This document shows positions 837 to 23,386 of a stretch of 33,879 nt of DNA, piece after piece (position 1 is the first letter of the stretch; every line of letters starts with the position of its first letter). The translations under genes and the position numbers were made by a program. Where the stretch lies: positions 1-33,879 of the forward strand of contig JAKEGK010000064.1 in the NCBI GenBank assembly GCA_022627515.1, read 5' to 3'. Source of the DNA: Gammaproteobacteria bacterium (GTDB taxonomy: Bacteria; Pseudomonadota; Gammaproteobacteria; SZUA-152). The notes under the pieces are model-generated. The model saw only the letters and a program-made list of their open reading frames with translations. It ran no database searches and had not been told where the DNA came from.

Positions 837-3224
837 TCATTTAGTTTGTGTAATAACGCCAGTTTGCGCTGCCCGGCGGCGCACACAACTGTTTATAACC
901 GCCTGCAGCAATGTTTTATCGGTAGGCACTGCGAGACAATCCACCGCACCCATCGCCAATCCCTTGCCCGCCTGATCTCTGTCACCCAACAGAACGATTG
1001 AGGCGCCACGCATGTTGGGATGATTCAGAATATAACTGAATAAACGCCAATCCATTTTTTCGGCCAGCGATACATCCAGCACTACGATATCAAAGAATTG
1101 ACTCGCGATAAAATTTTCGCAGGCTTCCGCATCAATCGCTGTTTGGGTTGTAAAACCTTTCAGCTTGAAATAGCGCGCGAATTGCTGAGCAATCACAGGC
1201 ACTTCATTAACGAACAGAATGGAACTGATATAGGTCCTGCGCTCAAAGCGTTGTGAATCCGTTAAATTTATCCGTTGTTGGCGCGCATCGTTTGGCTGAA
1301 CCGCAGCATTGCGCTCAAGATCGCTCTGTGTAATATCCTTCACTTTCACAGGCAGCATTATGGAAAAAGTGGAGCCCTTGCCTTTAACACTGGTAACGGA
1401 CAGGTCTCCGCCCATTAATTGGCAAAAGTTACGGCTGATCGCCAGGCCCAGTCCGGTTCCTCCGTATTCACGGGTGGTGGATGAATCCGCCTGAGTAAAC
1501 GCATTAAAAATTTTCGCCATTTCCTTTTTGGACAGGCCAATGCCGGTATCAGTAACCGAAAAGACGATTTTTTCCCCGTTGTTTTCCGTTATCCGCCTGA
1601 CTTGCAGTTTGATTGATCCGTGCCGGGTAAACTTCGCGGCATTACTCAAGATATTCAGCAAAGTCTGCCGCAGTTTGAGGCTATCGGCAAAAATAACTCC
1701 GCAAGACTCATCGCAATCAATAGTGAAATCGTTGTTGTTTTTGCTGACTACCGGCTGAACGGTTTGTTGAATTTCCCGGATCAACTCCGCGACATTAATT
1801 TCAGAGATGTCCAGTTCAATCTTGCCCGCTTCGATTTTGGTTAAATCAAGAATGTCATTTATCAGCACCAGCAGGTGCTGCGCCGCAGAATGAATTTTTG
1901 TCAAATCACTTGTCAGCATCTCATCTTCGTTGCTTTGCGATTCATCCAGCAGCAACTCCGAGTAGCCTATAATGGCGTTCAACGGCGTGCGCAGTTCATG
2001 ACTCATATTGGCGAGAAACTGGCTCTTGGATTGACTGGCCCGGATTGCTGCATCGCGTGCAATGGCCAGATCCGCCGTTCTTTGTTCCACCAGTTCTTCC
2101 AGGTGGTCACGGCTGAGTTTGAGCTGCACTTCCGCCGCCTCACGCTCCTTGATTTGCGCTTTCAGGTCTTCATTGGTGTGTTGCAACTCGTCATAGAGTT
2201 GCTTGAGTTCGGCGGTCATTTCGTTGAGGCCCGCCGCCAGTTCCCGCACTTCCCTGTTACCCTGCAGCTCAATGGATTTACCAAAGTATTCACTGCCGCG
2301 GCGGATTTTGCCTAAATGCATACCTACCCGGCGCAGGGGATCAAGCGTTGTCTTCTTGATAAAAAACATGGTTATCAACGCCACCAGCAATGTCGCCACA
2401 ACGACAGTCAGCATTAACGCAGTGCGTGTTTTGAGCAGTTGTTTTTCATACTGATTGACATCCCTGATCACGTAAAGCCGGAACGCTTCCCGGCCCGATA
2501 CGGTTAGCGGGGAAAATTGAGCGACAATACTATGCTCGGGAATCGCGCCTTCCGGCCAATGCTTTGATTGAAACGCAATGGAGCTGTCCAGGTACTCAAT
2601 ACGCAAGGGCATGCCGAGTTCCTTTTCGATCAGGGAAACGGTATAGGTAGGATCAGTGACAACTTCCAGGTAACCCAGCAAGCGCAGTCCGCCGATGGGA
2701 ATCAATACATGCATGAAGGGATAGCCTTTGGTCAGGCATAATTCGGAAATTACTTTGTACCGGTCTACACCATTGCGTAAGCGCGCGATCGTGTGCAAAT
2801 TTCCGCAGGCTGCCCCACCCCGAGGGGCAGCGTCTTTTGTGTCATCCACCGCTATAGCCATCAAATCAAGTTGTGCATCATGCACGATCAGGCTGTTCAG
2901 CTTTAATACTCCCGCGGTAACAAAATACTGGTGAAAATGCTGCTGCAGGTAGTTATGCAGGTTTTGCGCGTTGCGGATTTTCAAATCCTCGCGGAACGCC
3001 TGATTATTTTGTATGGTTTGTCCGAGATCGCGCGAATATTTTTCCAGTTCCGCCAGCAGATCGCCCACTCGCAGGCGCATAATCTCCTCGATCGCCACGC
3101 GCTGGTTGTCCAGCGCTACACGGCGATAAGTCACATCGACATAAAGGGCCAGAATTACCCCCAGGATTCCCATAATAGCAATCCCGATGGTCAGACTCAG
3201 CCGCAAAGACAATCGGCCAAACAT
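837..3224 (-). CDS. Membrane hybrid histidine kinase with degenerate receiver domain
   Basis: Sensor kinase of 795 residues. Order: TM helix (about 9-30), extracytoplasmic sensor region (31-265), second TM helix (about 268-290), HAMP (about 291-345), coiled coil (345-400), HisKA with [20 protein letters not shown] (phosphorylated His409), HATPase with N box [11 protein letters not shown] (522-532), G1 DTGIGL (559) and G2 GGTGLGL (588), then a C-terminal receiver-like domain (668-785). The kinase core looks intact. The receiver keeps an aspartate in VVLDVSL (D717). However, its first acidic pair reads NE (673-674) instead of DD/DE, and the conserved lysine is replaced (AVP around 764-767). The ligand is unknown. 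No cognate response regulator is adjacent; pgl follows downstream. No clear Shine-Dalgarno precedes the ATG at 3224. Confidence 0.9.
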
Positions 3225-9210: not shown

Positions 9211-10182
9211 TCAGTCAGCATCCTCATGCGCCACTACCCGGTTACGGCCTGATTTTTTCGCGCGGTACAATGCCTGATCAGCGCATGCAAGCCAATCCCG
9301 GTAGTCTTCAATCCTGTCCGACAACTCGGCAACCCCGAGGCTGATCGTGCAACAGATTTCGCAGCCTTCGTATTCGATGGACATTGTTTCTATCGCCTTG
9401 CGCAATCGTTCCGCCAGATAGCGCGCGCTATCAGCACTGGTATCAATCAGGATAATGCCAAATTCTTCACCCCCGTAACGGCCCGGTATATCGGTTGCCC
9501 TGACTTTTTTGCGCACCTGATCCGCCGTCAAACGGATAACTTCATCTCCCGCTTGATGTCCATAGGCGTCGTTGACATTTTTAAAATAGTCAATGTCAAA
9601 CAATATCAGGCTGCAGGGCTGGCCGGTTCGTTTGGAGCGCAGAAATTCTTCTTGCAGCCGCGCTTCCCAGTACCCGCGATTATGCAGTTTGGTCAAATGA
9701 TCGGTACGGCTCAGTTCCTGCAAAGTGCTATTGGCTTTCTCCAGTTCACCGCCGTTGATGGCGCTGTCCGTTACATCATAAATGATGATGCCAATATGAT
9801 TGACTGTTCCGTCAACGGAAGTCAGAGGAATAAAGGTCACATTCTGGTACATGAATTCCGCCGGGCCGGTAATGGGTCGATAGTTCTTGAATTTGATCAG
9901 ATACGGCCGCTGTTCCCAGGTTGTAAATGAGCGGCAATTCAACAATACCACGGATTCGGCTTTGCGTTTGAACCACTCCTCAGAGATGTCCGCAAATATT
10001 TCAAACAGTTTTTTGCCAATAATATCCTTGGCGGGCACCCCGCTGTGATTGGCCATGAAACTGTTCCAAACCTGAACATGGTAATCGCCATCCAGCACAA
10101 TCAGACCCACATCGATTGACTGCAGCATGTCCATCATCCAATGCAGCTCGGTAATTTCAATTTTCGCGGATCTGGTTGTCAT
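9211..10182 (-). CDS. PAS-GGDEF diguanylate cyclase
   Basis: Makes cyclic di-GMP from two GTP. The 323 residues have no signal peptide or membrane helix, so it is cytosolic. Residues about 12-140 form a PAS sensor (SIDVGLIVLDGDYHVQVWN), joined by a short helix (LEKANSTLQELSRTD) to a GGDEF domain. The active-site motif reads GGEEF (237-241), a fully active variant. Metal and substrate residues are present in LILFDIDYFKNVND, and an allosteric I-site RATD (228-231) lies five residues before GGEEF, so product inhibition is expected. Its ATG overlaps the stop of the receiver-CheC gene (ATGA, 10179-10182), implying translational coupling. It is likely the output of that upstream regulator, which is an inference from the operon. 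Confidence 0.92.
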   Translation of the reverse strand: MTTRSAKIEITELHWMMDMLQSIDVGLIVLDGDYHVQVWNSFMANHSGVPAKDIIGKKLFEIFADISEEWFKRKAESVVLLNCRSFTTWEQRPYLIKFKNYRPITGPAEFMYQNVTFIPLTSVDGTVNHIGIIIYDVTDSAINGGELEKANSTLQELSRTDHLTKLHNRGYWEARLQEEFLRSKRTGQPCSLILFDIDYFKNVNDAYGHQAGDEVIRLTADQVRKKVRATDIPGRYGGEEFGIILIDTSADSARYLAERLRKAIETMSIEYEGCEICCTISLGVAELSDRIEDYRDWLACADQALYRAKKSGRNRVVAHEDAD

Positions 10183-11171
10183 GCCGGCATCACGTAAGAA
10201 ATCAATTCGAATAATGGAGCGATGGAATCCTCAGTAAATAAAAACAGCAGATCGCAGGTGATCGACTTGCCTTCAAACGTAAAACTGGCCTCAATCGCCA
10301 GCGTCCTGTTCCAGCGGGAGACGCTGCGCTTTAACAGATCGTCCACCTTTACATGCCGTCCCAGTACGATCGGATGACCTTGACTGAAATTCACATCCAG
10401 CTGCTCGGCGATACCTTTCAGGAACGCGCTAATTAATATGCTGGACATATCCATCAACAGTTCCAGCTCCATGGCGTCATCAAGCTGCTCATGAAAGTTC
10501 ATCAAACTGGCCATATCGGTAAAACTGGCGTCATCAAAAATCAGCAACGCCTCCCCGGCAATACCCGCGCCGATGAATCCCTGGCAAACAGCGGACACCG
10601 CCTCTTTCTGGTCAACGTATTTCAGCGCCATGCGCAGCTCGTTTTTCTCTATAGTATTTACATTGGGAATCGGCATATTGATATAAACATTCAGCAGGCG
10701 CGCAAGCAGGTCGACCGCCCTGCCCATGGCGACATTCGCCACTTCCTGACAGCCCGCGCGGACATCGGTGTCAATCTCCACCTGTTGCACATGTTTGCGT
10801 TTGAAGATTTTCACCCCGTGCCGGGCCAGCACCTCAGCTATTTCCTGCTTATTGACCGGCTTCCTGATAAAGGCGTCCACGCCCAAATCCATTACCCGCT
10901 TGCGTGCATCCGGCTGTATGTCGCCGGACACGACAATCACTTTTGGCGACAGCCCGGCATCGCGGATGGCTTCCAGCGCCTGGTAGCCATCCATAACCGG
11001 CATATTCAGGTCCAGAAATATGATTTCCGCCTTGCCGGCCTTTACTGCGGCGAGCCCCTCGGCGCCATCGCTGGCAAAGGTAACCTCAACATCACAGCCG
11101 TCCGGTAGTGCGCGCAACATTTGTTTGCGTGCAAAACTGGAATCGTCACAAATTACGATAGGTGTCGGCAT
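10179..11171 (-). CDS. Receiver domain fused to CheC/CheX-type phosphatase domain
   Basis: A 330-residue two-domain protein. Residues 1-120 form a complete receiver: D9-D10, phosphoacceptor D54 (IIFLDLNMPVMDGYQ), S82 and K104 (IRKPVNK). Residues 130-330 resemble the CheC/CheX/FliY family of CheY-P phosphatases. The first active helix carries the ExxN signature (E143-V-A-N146 in GCQEVANVAMGRAVDLL). The pseudo-symmetric second helix (ELLMDMSSILISAFL) lacks the E..N pair. The protein could therefore both accept a phosphoryl group and remove one, from itself or a partner. No other chemotaxis gene is near. It is the first gene of an operon with the diguanylate cyclase at 9211-10182. The CheC assignment rests on motif and helix pattern only. 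Confidence 0.85.
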   Translation of the reverse strand: MPTPIVICDDSSFARKQMLRALPDGCDVEVTFASDGAEGLAAVKAGKAEIIFLDLNMPVMDGYQALEAIRDAGLSPKVIVVSGDIQPDARKRVMDLGVDAFIRKPVNKQEIAEVLARHGVKIFKRKHVQQVEIDTDVRAGCQEVANVAMGRAVDLLARLLNVYINMPIPNVNTIEKNELRMALKYVDQKEAVSAVCQGFIGAGIAGEALLIFDDASFTDMASLMNFHEQLDDAMELELLMDMSSILISAFLKGIAEQLDVNFSQGHPIVLGRHVKVDDLLKRSVSRWNRTLAIEASFTFEGKSITCDLLFLFTEDSIAPLFELISYVMPA

Positions 11172-14309: not shown

Positions 14310-14634
14310 TACCAGCAAGATTCGGTTCATTCACCATCTTAACCAATTCACTATTACTGGCTCGTTATGAACGTGGCCAGCGGCAACGCTGTTAAACTTC
14401 AATCCATTCACAAAATTTTTCAACCTGCACACGCTCTGCAAAACCGCCCGCCGCTTAATTTAAAAATATCCGGGATACTTAAGCCTGCAATACCAATTTA
14501 TGTCATAATCGATTATTTAGCCTGAGCCGCTGGTAAAACGAAAGATAATAATCAATGTCAGCAAGGTAATGCCGGTCCTGGCCGCCATGGCCAATTCAGG
14601 ATAATGTTATGGATTGTCACGGAGAAACTGGTTA
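14310..14634. other. Intergenic region upstream of rapA
   Basis: About 325 bases. A 55-codon ATG frame at 14367 has no ribosome binding site or recognisable product. The AT-rich part at 14490-14520 probably holds the rapA promoter, though no consensus pair is clear. No terminator for the CBS gene was found. Confidence 0.4.
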
Positions 14635-17538
14635 ATGCAGGATTTTATACCCGGCCAACGCTGGATAAGCGACACGGAACTTCAGCATGGCCTTGGCACG
14701 GTGCTTAAAACCGACCAGCGCAGTGTGACAATCGTATTTATGGCAACTGGTGAAACCCGCACCTACGCCAAAGAAACAGCGCCCCTGACCCGCGCGAGGT
14801 TTTCCCCAGGTGATGCCATTCGCAGTCACGCGGGCTGGACACTTGTGGTTGCGTCGGTGGCTGAACACAACGGCTTGTTTACTTATCATGGCACCCGCGA
14901 TAACCAACAGGCGGCAAGCCTGAAAGAAAGCGAACTGGATAATTTCATTCAGCTCAACAAACCCATTGACCGCCTGTTCAGCGGACAAATAGATCCCGGC
15001 AAATGGTTTGAACTGCGCTACCAGACACTGTTGCATGTCAATGCGCAACTTCATTCTGAAATACGCGGCATGATCGGCGGACGCACCAGCCTGATCCCTC
15101 ATCAGCTCTATATCGCTCATGAAGTTGCAAACCGTTACGCGCCGAGAGTTTTATTGGCTGACGAAGTGGGACTTGGGAAAACCATTGAAGCCGGCATGAT
15201 TCTGCATCAGCAATTAATTACTGAAAGGGCCAGCCGCGTACTCATTGTCGTTCCGGATACCCTGCTTCATCAGTGGCTCGTGGAAATGCTGCGCCGCTTT
15301 AACCTGCGTTTCAGCATCTTTGATGAAGAACGCTGCCTGGCGGACGAGGAAAGCGCAACCCAGGAAAATCCCTTTCATACTGAACAACTGGTCCTTTGCA
15401 GCCTGGATTTTCTGGTCAGGCATCCGCAACGGTTTCAGCAGGCGCTTGCCGGAACGTGGGATATGCTGGTGGTGGATGAGGCCCACCATTTGCAGTGGAC
15501 GCCGCAGCAAGCCAGCCCCGAATACTTGGTAGTTGAAGCGTTGTCCCGTCAAACCAAGGGTGTCCTGTTATTAACCGCTACGCCGGAACAATTGGGCAAG
15601 GCAGGTCATTTTGCGCGCCTGCGCCTTCTGGATAGCAACCGGTTTTCCAGCTTTGAAAATTTTCTCGAAGACGAACGCCATTACGCACCGGTAGCGCAAG
15701 CCATTGAAGAGTTGCTCCACGATGAAACACTCAGCGAACCGGCATATCAAACCCTGTTAGCCACGATTGATGAAGTTGACAATTCGGAATTACTTAATCA
15801 ACTGCAAGCTGACAATATAGCGCAGGAAACCAAAAGCATGGCGCGCATGCAATTGGTGGAACACTTGCTGGACCGGCATGGCACAGGCCGCGTTCTGTTC
15901 CGTAACACGCGGGCTGCGGTCAAAGGTTTCCCTCAAAGAACGGTGACTTCATATCCCCTGCCTCTGCCCGCCGCTTACCAGGCCTGCCTGGCGGACTTGC
16001 AGTCCACCGGCATAAGCCACCCGCAGGATTTATTGAGCCTGGAATTGGTCTATCAAAACACCGCAAGCCGGCCATCCGCATCGTGGACTTTATTCGACCC
16101 GCGGATTGACTGGCTTGCCGGTAAACTGAAGGAACTGCGGCCGGAAAAAGTATTGGTGATTACTTCAAGCGCCCGGTCGGCACTGGATATTGCTGACGAG
16201 TTGCGGAAAAAGCAGGGAATACACGCGGCAATATTTCATGAAGGTTTAACGATCGTTGAACGCGACCGCGCCGCCGCTTACTTTGCGGACCGCGACGCCG
16301 GAACACAGGTTCTGATCTGTTCGGAAATAGGCAGCGAAGGACGCAATTTCCAGTTCGCTCATCACATGGTCCTGTTTGATTTGCCCTACAATCCTGATCT
16401 GCTCGAACAACGGATCGGCAGGCTGGACCGCATCGGGCAAACGCAGGCCATTCAAATCCATATCCCGTTTCTCGGCAACAGTCCGCAGCAGATTATGTTT
16501 CAGTGGTATCATGAAGGCTTGTCGGCCTTCGAACACACCTGCCCGGCCGGCCACAGCGTGTTTGTACGGGTGGAGTCCACACTGCTTGAAGCACTGCACC
16601 AGATCGATGAGGGCATCGAAGACCTGCCTGCCCTTATTAACACCACAAAAAAACTGCATCAGGAACTTAATGCTGAATTGCAGAAAGGGCGCGACAGGTT
16701 ACTGGAATCTAACTCCTGCCGAACCGATGCCGCCAGCCGGATCAAGGAGCAGATTCAAATTCAGGATAACGATCCAGCGTTGCAGAACTACCTGGAAAAG
16801 GTTTTCGATTGCCATGGAATCGAGGCTGAAATTCATGGCAGCAACAGCTTTGTTTTACATCCCGGCCCGCAAACCGACCTGGCGTGTTTTCCCGGATTGC
16901 ACGAGGAAGGCGCCACCATTACCTTTGACCGGCATACCGCGCTGATGAACGAGGACATGCAGTTCATAACCTGGGAGCACCCCATGGTCATGGGCGCCGC
17001 GGATATGATTCTAAGCAATGAACGGGGTAATACGGCGCTTTGCGCCATTAATCATAAAAACATCCAGCCAGGAAACCTGCTCGTAGAAACTGTTTTTATT
17101 TTGGAGTCTATGGCAAAAACGCAATTGCAGGTCAGCCGTTATCTGCCGCTGACAGCCATCAGACTTGTCATCGACGGCAAAGGAAAGGATATCGGCGACC
17201 GCTTGACGCATGATACGATCAATCAACATCAGTCAATCGTGCCGCCGCAAGTGGCCGCCAAAGTTGTGAAATCACACAAGAAAGAAATTCGTGAATTAAT
17301 TCAAAATAGCGAAGCGCTCGCCAGACGCTCTGCGCCAGCCATCCTGGCGAACGCAAGGCAGCATACCAGGGAGTTGCTGCAGCGGGAAATCAACCGCCTT
17401 AAGGCCTTGCAACAGGTCAATCCCAATGTACGTAATGAAGAAATCGAATACTTTGAACACCAGCACCGCGGGGTAATTGATGCGCTGGAATCCGCCGTGC
17501 CGCGGCTGGACGCGCTGCGGGTGATTGTTTCAACCTGA
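14635..17538 (+). CDS. rapA: RNA polymerase-associated ATPase RapA (HepA)
   Basis: A Swi2/Snf2-family ATPase that binds RNA polymerase and recycles stalled post-termination complexes. It is 967 residues, essentially the E. coli length. The N-terminal tandem Tudor-like region starts FIPGQRWISDTELQHGLGTV. Walker A is DEVGLGKTIEAGMI (from about 176) and the Walker B box is VVDEAHHLQW. Motif III is LLLTATPEQLG. The helicase C lobe has VLFRNTRAAVKGFP, CSEIGSEGRNFQFAHHMVLF and QRIGRLDRIGQT. The C-terminal region (after about 650) matches RapA-specific sequence such as FITWEHPMVMGAADMILS and ends ALRVIVST. The start is the ATG at 14635 with GGAG 10 bases upstream; an in-frame TTG at 14614 is less likely. 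All ATPase motifs are intact. It is convergent with the OsmC gene, 55 bases away. Confidence 0.97.
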   Translation: MQDFIPGQRWISDTELQHGLGTVLKTDQRSVTIVFMATGETRTYAKETAPLTRARFSPGDAIRSHAGWTLVVASVAEHNGLFTYHGTRDNQQAASLKESELDNFIQLNKPIDRLFSGQIDPGKWFELRYQTLLHVNAQLHSEIRGMIGGRTSLIPHQLYIAHEVANRYAPRVLLADEVGLGKTIEAGMILHQQLITERASRVLIVVPDTLLHQWLVEMLRRFNLRFSIFDEERCLADEESATQENPFHTEQLVLCSLDFLVRHPQRFQQALAGTWDMLVVDEAHHLQWTPQQASPEYLVVEALSRQTKGVLLLTATPEQLGKAGHFARLRLLDSNRFSSFENFLEDERHYAPVAQAIEELLHDETLSEPAYQTLLATIDEVDNSELLNQLQADNIAQETKSMARMQLVEHLLDRHGTGRVLFRNTRAAVKGFPQRTVTSYPLPLPAAYQACLADLQSTGISHPQDLLSLELVYQNTASRPSASWTLFDPRIDWLAGKLKELRPEKVLVITSSARSALDIADELRKKQGIHAAIFHEGLTIVERDRAAAYFADRDAGTQVLICSEIGSEGRNFQFAHHMVLFDLPYNPDLLEQRIGRLDRIGQTQAIQIHIPFLGNSPQQIMFQWYHEGLSAFEHTCPAGHSVFVRVESTLLEALHQIDEGIEDLPALINTTKKLHQELNAELQKGRDRLLESNSCRTDAASRIKEQIQIQDNDPALQNYLEKVFDCHGIEAEIHGSNSFVLHPGPQTDLACFPGLHEEGATITFDRHTALMNEDMQFITWEHPMVMGAADMILSNERGNTALCAINHKNIQPGNLLVETVFILESMAKTQLQVSRYLPLTAIRLVIDGKGKDIGDRLTHDTINQHQSIVPPQVAAKVVKSHKKEIRELIQNSEALARRSAPAILANARQHTRELLQREINRLKALQQVNPNVRNEEIEYFEHQHRGVIDALESAVPRLDALRVIVST

Positions 17539-20995: not shown

Positions 20996-23386
20996 CTAAA
21001 TGATTTTAAATTTATCGTCTGACAAGTAGTGAACTTTAAAGTTTAACGGCTCGAGGGCTTCCGGCATATGAATACCGTACCCCTGCGCAAAGTCCACCTG
21101 CATCACTTTAAGAATATTAAGAATATCCTCATTCTCGACGAATTCCGCGATGGTTTTGATACCCATCACTTGCCCGATCTGGTTAATCGCAATCACCATC
21201 ACCTGGTCGACCGGATCCGACAACATATCGCTGACAAACGCGCCGTCAATCTTGATGTAATCAACCGGCAGGTTCTTCAAATATGCAAACGACGACATAC
21301 CGCTGCCAAAGTCATCCAGGGCAAACTGGCAGCCTCTGGATTTTAACGCGGATACAAACTGGTTCGCGTGACGCCAGTTGGATATCGCCGCGGTTTCCGT
21401 GATTTCAAAACAGATTTGCCGGGGATCCACTCTGCTCTCGTCCAGTTCAGTAATACAAAATTGCAGGAACCCGTCATCGCAAAGCGACTGCCCGGACAAA
21501 TTAATGGAATATACGTCGTTGTTTTTGATTTTGCCGTGTTTCCTGTGCAACCAGCCCAGCACCCGCTTGACCACCCACTTGTCAATAGCCGCCATTGTGC
21601 CAAAGCGCTCGGCCGCTGGTATAAATGCCATGGGCGCCACAATTTCCCCGCTTTCGTTCACCATTCGCAACAGGAACTCAAAATAATTGCAACCGTCATT
21701 TTGCGTGATAGGTTGGACTTTCTGGTAGTAGAGCAGGAAACGGTCGTTTTCCAGCGCGGCATTGATTTTGGATGCCCACTCCATTTCCCCATGACGCTGG
21801 GCGACATCCTGATCATCGAGGTGGTGGATCCAGACGCGGCTGCGCCCCTTGTCTTTCGCGATGAAACAGGCCGCGTCAGCCGCGCTAAGAATAGCTTCGG
21901 AATCCCGGCAATGCTCATCGATCATGGCCAGACCAATACTGACGCCGAGTGAAAAAACCTTGCCTTTCCAGACGAACCTGAAATCTCTCACCGACTCTAC
22001 AAGCTGAGAGGCGATACGTTCGGCCTTGGGCAGTGGGCAGGCTTCCAGGATCAATCCAAACTCATCGCCGCCCAACCTTGCCAGCAAGTCAGCCTCACGG
22101 ATATTGGACTTTAACAGCGCGACAATCTGCTTGAGAAGTTCGTCTCCGGCAACGTGCCCGCAAGTATCGTTGACCAGTTTGAATTGATCCAGATCGAGAT
22201 ATAACAAGGCATGCTTGGGCCGGTTGGGATCAGTGTTCGATAACAGAGTATTCAGCAATATTTCAAATTCACGCCGGTTTGCCAGGCCGGTGAGACTGTC
22301 ATGACGCGCCTGCCATGACAGTTGATGGGCAAGATTGCGTTCATGGGTTACGTCCCGCGACACCACCACCACGCCGAATTTTTCCCCATTGTTTTTGAAT
22401 AACGGCGACGTGGTATCTATCACCATATATTCATTTTCATCCCGGCTGTTAAGCACGTAGTGTTGATGCAGCCCCATGACCTGCCCGTCGACATTGCCCT
22501 GATACGCCGGGTGGTTCACTTTATTTCCGGTCAGTTCCTCATTTACGCGATACACCAGGGAAATATCCTTGCCGGCGGCGTCCGCGCAGCGCCAGCCCGT
22601 TAAATGCTCGGCTACCGGATTTAAATAGACAATCCGGCCTTGCGCGTCAGCTGTTATCACAGCGTCGCCAATGGCATGCAAGGTGACTTCCGCCTGTTCC
22701 TTGGCTTCAAACAAAGCGCCTTCAATTTGCCGGGTCCGGTAAATTACCAGAACCGTAATCAGCACGCCCACCAGGGTGACAATGACGCCAATCGTGATCA
22801 TCATGAAATAGGCGGTTTCATATTCCTGCTTGGCCGCCGCGTTGGCGTTGCGGGTAATCTCCTGTTCGATCTCAATCAGCTTGTCAAATAATGTGAGTAT
22901 CTTTTTTTCCAACGGCAGGTCGATAGCCGACATTAATGAGTAAATATCTTTTTGATTATCTTCGATCATCAAGTCGACGATTCTTTGCTGGAGCGGAGCG
23001 CTGCGGCTGATCAATTGCAGCGCTTCGGAAAACATGGCCTGTTGCTGGGGCAATACGCCGGCTTCCTCAAACTGCGTACGCAGCTTGATGAACTGTTCCG
23101 CCAGCGCATTGAAATGCATAAATTCATCGTCGCGCGAAAACGCATCTTCTGTGAGATAAATGGCATACATCGTCAGGGACCGCTCACGCACAATACGGCG
23201 CATGGCGGTGATGATATTGATACGTTCAGCGCGTTCAATGGTAATGGTTTCCATGGCATCCTTAATGGAACCCATATGAGAAATGCCGGTAATCGCCAGA
23301 CTGATCATCAATGCAATCATTAATGATGAACCCGCTGCGATTACGTAATTGGCATTGGTAAAAAGTCTGCGCGGATAAGATGTCAT
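20996..23386 (-). CDS. Membrane PAS-GGDEF-EAL cyclic di-GMP enzyme
   Basis: A 796-residue bifunctional-type protein. TM helix (about 14-36), periplasmic four-helix-bundle-like sensor (37-190), second TM (about 191-216), short helix, PAS (about 228-350), GGDEF (355-520), EAL (535-785). The cyclase site is intact (ARLGGDEFG, 436-444; LDLDQFKLVND) and an I-site READ (430-433) is present. In the phosphodiesterase, EAL reads EFL (570-572). The other catalytic elements remain: INLSG, FEITETA, LDDFGSG (690-696), IKIDGAF, AEFVEN and AQGYGIHMPE (767-776). Both activities are therefore possible; which dominates cannot be read from sequence. No strong ribosome binding site precedes the ATG at 23386. The DsrE-like gene follows 66 bases downstream. 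Confidence 0.92.
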   Translation of the reverse strand: MTSYPRRLFTNANYVIAAGSSLMIALMISLAITGISHMGSIKDAMETITIERAERINIITAMRRIVRERSLTMYAIYLTEDAFSRDDEFMHFNALAEQFIKLRTQFEEAGVLPQQQAMFSEALQLISRSAPLQQRIVDLMIEDNQKDIYSLMSAIDLPLEKKILTLFDKLIEIEQEITRNANAAAKQEYETAYFMMITIGVIVTLVGVLITVLVIYRTRQIEGALFEAKEQAEVTLHAIGDAVITADAQGRIVYLNPVAEHLTGWRCADAAGKDISLVYRVNEELTGNKVNHPAYQGNVDGQVMGLHQHYVLNSRDENEYMVIDTTSPLFKNNGEKFGVVVVSRDVTHERNLAHQLSWQARHDSLTGLANRREFEILLNTLLSNTDPNRPKHALLYLDLDQFKLVNDTCGHVAGDELLKQIVALLKSNIREADLLARLGGDEFGLILEACPLPKAERIASQLVESVRDFRFVWKGKVFSLGVSIGLAMIDEHCRDSEAILSAADAACFIAKDKGRSRVWIHHLDDQDVAQRHGEMEWASKINAALENDRFLLYYQKVQPITQNDGCNYFEFLLRMVNESGEIVAPMAFIPAAERFGTMAAIDKWVVKRVLGWLHRKHGKIKNNDVYSINLSGQSLCDDGFLQFCITELDESRVDPRQICFEITETAAISNWRHANQFVSALKSRGCQFALDDFGSGMSSFAYLKNLPVDYIKIDGAFVSDMLSDPVDQVMVIAINQIGQVMGIKTIAEFVENEDILNILKVMQVDFAQGYGIHMPEALEPLNFKVHYLSDDKFKII

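Follow-up and report, generated by a model that had tools for sequence, protein, structure and literature searches.

Conserved pairing of receiver-CheC proteins with a PAS domain, with hints of a chemosensory ancestry

The gene pair and its domains

The window analyzed here (i.e., the whole stretch of 33,879 nucleotides of contig JAKEGK010000064.1 from a gammaproteobacterium) carries, on the minus strand, a gene for a REC-CheC response regulator (10179-11171; 330 aa, P0001) and a gene for a PAS-GGDEF diguanylate cyclase (9211-10182; 323 aa, P0002), which are joined by a 4-base stop/start overlap, ATGA (10179-10182); all coordinates given below for the pair are on this strand. The receiver domain of the first protein (residues 1-122; 10806-11171; Pfam Response_reg, E = 4e-22) contains the phosphoacceptor D54 (codon at 11010-11012) and K104 (codon at 10860-10862), and D9, D10, D54 and K104 were invariant in alignments of 7 and of 29 fused homologues. 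A linker (residues 123-134; 10770-10805), with pLDDT <50 at residues 126-129, leads to the CheC domain (residues 135-327; 10191-10769), which was assigned by profile searches against CheC and FliY structures in the PDB and by Foldseek. This domain includes a first ExxN phosphatase motif, E143-V-A-N146 (10734-10745), which is invariant in alignments A1, A2 and A3, as well as a second, degenerate motif, D241-M-S-S244 (10440-10451), found by alignment with homologues. In the partner protein, a PAS domain (9766-10170; Pfam PAS_4, E = 5.6e-8; alignment A4) of a subfamily marked by WNxFMxxHSG ... FTxWEQRPYLFxF ... RPITG is joined to a GGDEF domain (9229-9723; Pfam GGDEF, E = 1.8e-45) with an intact GGEEF active site (residues 237-241; 9460-9474) and RATD I-site (residues 228-231; 9490-9501). 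A sequence-only reading of this locus had described the complete receiver with D54 and K104, the overlap between the two genes and the intact active site and I-site of the cyclase, and on each of these points our analyses agree with it; the degenerate second ExxN site of the CheC domain went unmentioned there.

Residues 82-86 of the receiver (SGDIQ; 10914-10928) represent a signature, [ST][AG][DN]xQ, that follows beta-4 and is kept in 120 of the 124 fused and split receivers; SAN- and TAN-type versions were also noticed by eye in distant receivers. This signature is possibly a partner-binding surface.

When the window protein alone was searched against Pfam, the scores for CheX (E = 0.019; 15.5 bits, as compared to a gathering cut-off of 27) and CheC (E = 0.15; 12.4 bits, as compared to a cut-off of 22) were both below threshold, and a check of this kind alone would thus return a "no" for CheC. 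The assignment was made with family profiles in place of single-protein Pfam or NCBIfam searches. Relatives of the window CheC domain reach E values of 1e-8 to 1e-9 in the same Pfam library, and a profile built from fifteen domains matched, in the PDB, FliY (4hyn, E = 6.5e-13), CheC (1xkr and 2f9z, E of approx. 1e-11) and a CheC-like protein (3qta, E = 4.8e-7), and both CheC motif regions were aligned. An AlphaFold2 model of REC-CheC (mean pLDDT 88.6, pTM 0.64) showed low confidence in the linker only, and 2f9z, 3qta, 1xkr and 4hyn ranked first when this model was searched with Foldseek (E = 1e-10 to 1e-11), with C-ring structures also among the matches. The domain is approx. 15% identical to the solved CheC and FliY structures. 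The first ExxN motif was present in 98/98 fused and 17/17 split homologues extracted, where the extraction itself required the motif; the invariance of E13 and N16 in alignment A2 provides an independent check. At the second motif, the window has D241..S244, the fused clade D..N or D..S, and most split relatives E..N. As CheX and some CheC have only one ExxN site, loss of the second site does not exclude membership in the CheC/CheX/FliY family. Overall, these data confirm that the window protein carries a CheC domain, with the CheC fold and an intact first ExxN motif, as the CheC/CheX-type assignment made earlier from E143..N146 had held, and they suggest that REC-CheC probably carries its own predicted "off" enzyme.

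Three other genes of the window may be mentioned here. A hybrid histidine kinase (837-3224, minus strand; HAMP, HisKA, HATPase_c and a weak C-terminal receiver, E = 8e-7) is encoded on the same strand as the pair, approx. 6 kb away, and is not conserved beside the pair in relatives. A 4HB_MCP sensor-PAS-GGDEF-EAL protein (20996-23386, minus strand) represents the second cyclic di-GMP enzyme of the window, and a RapA-type RNA polymerase recycling factor with the full domain set is encoded at 14614-17538 on the plus strand. No RNA family, tRNA or phage match was found in the window.

Conservation of the pairing and variation around it

Among the 84,980 species genomes scanned (GTDB), 557 relatives were confirmed, and the 80 best of these were retained. 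PAS-GGDEF enzymes are common; the PAS domain of the partner belongs to one recognizable subfamily, which was found 3' of CheC in each of the 110 loci examined. To guard against best-hit bias, the CheC and PAS profiles were run independently on 369 genomes sampled evenly across the class, and CheC at E < 1e-35 and PAS at E <= 1e-20 identified the identical set of 45 genomes. The listed CheC and PAS positions are adjacent in these 45 genomes, and PAS domains of the partner subfamily were found, in this survey, only together with a CheC of the window type. Even where one genome (G368) has three copies of the module (L136, L170 and L171), each has an adjacent PAS; one of these copies has a PAS-only partner, one has PAS-GGDEF and one is more diverged. 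The gene pair named in the sequence-only reading is thus strongly conserved: receiver, CheC and PAS form an obligate pairing, far above chance, and what stays constant beside this CheC type is the PAS domain rather than the cyclase. No kinase was found to recur beside the pair in the 80 close-locus neighborhoods, and the window locus has no adjacent cognate kinase gene as in a canonical two-component pair.

The fusion of receiver and CheC is one of the features that vary. Relatives from the window's own family, Burkholderia and Caballeronia have three separate genes, i.e., CheY-like, CheC and PAS-GGDEF. Frameshifts had been suspected at the REC/CheC stops in relatives and were rejected, as each of these marks a genuine gene end that overlaps the next start. 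In a tree of REC and CheC, one change suffices for the fusion, and two unfused loci that are otherwise like the fused clade (L063 and L103) are placed, with weak support, close to its base; the tree indicates that the fusion is derived. Spacing between the REC-CheC and partner genes in fused loci is short (median of a few bases). Fused proteins are 327 to 413 aa long, some as counted from start codons that are merely the first in frame, with the extra length located mainly in the REC/CheC linker.

The cyclase varies as well. The partner usually carries a cyclic di-GMP-making GGDEF domain and, where this is present, GGEEF and RxxD are retained in nearly all cases. PAS-only partners (146-178 aa), on the other hand, occur in Vibrio, Salinivibrio, Aeromonas, two Pseudomonas plasmids, one Colwellia and several uncultured lineages. 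By parsimony, the cyclase state must change 9 times on a tree in which many branches are weak; strongly supported branches force approx. 4 changes for the PAS-only group, with L065 counted as cyclase-less. Three loci, L040 (GGEEY), L062 (frame truncated at GGE) and L065 (GGDDF), were left out of the count of cyclase losses. In Shewanella mangrovi (L107), the motif of the PAS-GGDEF partner has decayed to GGETL, while PAS and REC-CheC are kept. The invariant core is the receiver, CheC and PAS.

These patterns bear on the switch pictured in the sequence-only reading, in which phosphorylation of the receiver controls cyclic di-GMP synthesis and the fused phosphatase ends the signal. As GGDEF is missing in many lineages, control of cyclic di-GMP synthesis by phosphorylation cannot be a general rule and finds no support as such. 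As the fusion is derived and CheY and CheC are separate in relatives, the circuit would not need a built-in self-resetting protein; the split arrangement nevertheless makes it likelier that CheC acts on its partner receiver.

Chemosensory relatives of the pair

A tblastn search for che genes found none in the window. The earlier remark that no chemotaxis gene is near is thus true within the window but misleading, since distant versions are located in complete chemosensory clusters and CheW was found in all genomes with close members. Among the weaker CheC matches of the 369-genome survey (E = 1e-15 to 1e-25), CheY, CheC and PAS-GGDEF(-EAL) often occur in that order. Chemosensory genes were located beside 6 of the 14 distant regions, as compared to CheA, CheB, CheR or CheW beside none of the 80 close loci and a lone MCP beside 5 of these 80. 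By Pfam, one distant locus (L175) consists of CheW, CheR-TPR, CheW, MCP, CheA with a receiver, CheB, CheY, CheC and PAS-GGDEF, and is Wsp-like; another (L174) consists of CheA, CheW, MCP, CheR, CheD, CheB, MCP, CheY, CheC and PAS-GGDEF-EAL, and in a third (L173) CheA lies beside the CheY/CheC/PAS triple. The Wsp/ACF arrangement, in which MCP, CheW, CheA, CheR and CheB are encoded with the output, was found only in the distant L174 and L175 and is absent at the window. These distant relatives hint that the cassette may have its ancestry in chemosensory operons, and also at the type of kinase that may activate it.

A strong CheW match was present in 45/45 genomes with close members as compared to 187/369 genomes overall, and CheZ was present in 43 of these 45. 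The associations support a link to CheA without proving it, as they are confounded by kinship and genome size; the listed genomes lacking CheW are mostly small. About a dozen CheW matches were found in the window's own genome. No CheZ scored above the cut-off in its 312-contig draft, in contrast to 43 of the 45 module-bearing genomes. A separate canonical CheX (75.7 bits; L001/L172, G000:C274:17715-18011) was also observed in this genome.

Two further distant CheY-CheC-PAS sets (L176 and L182) are flanked by an MCP-like protein (tblastn match) and, as judged by eye, by a receiver-led protein of 596 aa, a STAS-like protein of 100 aa and a Ser/Thr-kinase-like gene. For these neighbors, a link to partner switching is possible.

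Proposed mechanism and alternatives

We propose that the window pair may represent the two-gene, orphaned form of a three-part cassette in which a CheY-like receiver is accompanied by a CheC-type aspartyl-phosphate phosphatase and by a dedicated PAS partner, attached here to a diguanylate cyclase. D54 would most likely be phosphorylated by a CheA-type kinase that belongs to a chemosensory array and whose gene lies elsewhere in the genome; the phosphorylated receiver would act on the partner's PAS domain, thereby altering the activity of the cyclase dimer; and CheC, through its single intact site (E143/N146), would strip the phosphate and end the signal, acting either within the chain, across the flexible linker, or between chains. 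Here we infer the kinase, the contact between receiver and PAS, the direction of the signal and the phosphatase activity alike. The stand-alone CheY beside a stand-alone CheC in split operons suggests that this receiver is the natural CheC substrate, and the PAS domain is proposed as the contact point because it is invariant while GGDEF comes and goes. Conversely, the lack of a kinase or che gene recurring beside close-clade loci counts against the model, as do the lineages without a cyclase, since the cyclase cannot then be the sole output, and the degenerate second CheC site. We estimate the probability of the whole model, from CheA-type kinase through receiver and PAS to cyclase, with reset by CheC, at approx. 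0.5. If true, the pair would link chemosensory phosphate to cyclic di-GMP through a route equipped with its own reset, and would provide a case of a PAS domain reading a receiver.

More generally, and more tentatively, CheY-CheC-PAS may be a detachable chemosensory output cassette that left its operon, became fused and works with a distant CheA, in which PAS rather than GGDEF reads receiver phosphorylation or regulates CheC, and to which a cyclic di-GMP enzyme was repeatedly added and lost. Orphan REC-CheC or CheY/CheC sets are found in hundreds of species, among them Vibrio, Shewanella, Colwellia, Pseudomonas and Burkholderia relatives, and the obligate PAS and the chemosensory ancestry make it testable which CheA feeds the set and whether PAS serves as output or as regulator.

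The main rival to the proposed mechanism reverses the flow: PAS would be an input, sensing a ligand or the redox state, and would regulate CheC in the manner of CheD in Bacillus and Thermotoga; REC-CheC would be a tunable phosphatase, and GGDEF, where present, would be a parallel second output. The invariant PAS and dispensable GGDEF fit this explanation, an operon with a PAS-only partner lacks an output domain, and CheC is known in a complex with a regulator (2f9z, CheC-CheD). We nevertheless regard it as less likely than the proposed mechanism; no ligand signature was identified in the PAS domain, and the GGDEF or GGDEF-EAL joined to it in most lineages, and also in the distant chemosensory operons, has conserved catalytic motifs, which suggests an output.

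Two other explanations assign the CheC domain a different role and appear less probable. REC-CheC could be an auxiliary phosphatase of the flagellar CheY, gated by its own receiver, which would agree with the strong CheW matches in genomes with close members, with the absence of CheZ above the cut-off in the window's genome and with the action of CheC, CheX and FliY on CheY in other bacteria, as cited in PMC10542144. We consider this improbable, as CheZ is already present in nearly all genomes with close members, the cassette lies outside flagellar che loci and brings its own receiver (encoded by a gene of its own next to CheC in split loci), and the window's genome is a draft that has a separate CheX. 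The CheC domain could also be a non-catalytic binding module, as in CheC-CheD or in FliY/FliM of the C ring, with the receiver controlling docking on PAS or the motor. The CheC fold is common to the FliM middle domain, which is non-catalytic, C-ring structures were among the Foldseek matches and the fused clade no longer has a second ExxN site; the invariance of the first ExxN motif across fused, split and Burkholderia forms, however, is hard to explain without catalysis and makes a purely binding role very improbable.

As compared to known systems, the fold and first ExxN motif of the window protein are common to CheC of Thermotoga and Bacillus and to FliY, while the window CheC is fused to a receiver, has a degenerate second site and is located in an operon without CheD, outside a che locus. 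The distant L175 has the operon plan of Wsp (MCP, two CheW, CheR-TPR, CheA-REC and CheB) and a cyclic di-GMP output, with the three genes CheY, CheC and PAS-GGDEF in place of WspR (REC-GGDEF), and no chemosensory genes flank the copy in the window; CheR-TPR and a receiver-GGDEF output are marks of ACF/Wsp pathways (PMC3447774), a parallel to the proposed model. According to two papers (PMC2222644; PMC5654926), REC-CheC ("CheC-like") proteins are a class of orphan response regulators that includes Pseudomonas syringae Psyr_0886 (PSYR0886), PSPTO1039 and PSPPH0923; we liken Psyr_0886 to the window protein by its REC and CheC architecture, orthology aside. In PMC5654926, Psyr_0886 was assayed with one kinase only, the phytochrome kinase BphP1, and phosphotransfer is reported for another regulator. 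The Pseudomonas plasmid relatives found here have a PAS-only partner, whereas an active-looking GGDEF is attached to the window PAS. No description of the operon, of an obligate PAS partner or of a chemosensory ancestry turned up in the literature searched, although such an absence is weak evidence where most subscription journals are excluded, and "CheC" as a whole word is absent from PMC1183210, PMC4331095 and PMC5847659. The REC-CheC class was thus already known, while its obligate PAS pairing and chemosensory origin appear to be new within this literature.

The nearest solved relative of the partner PAS, by sequence (E = 1.9e-31) and by fold, is 3mxq, a PAS domain from a Vibrio cholerae "sensory box sensor histidine kinase" that is approx. 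28% identical to the window PAS. As 3mxq was deposited as part of a histidine kinase, it may provide a lead to a Vibrio kinase that shares the PAS type of the partner.
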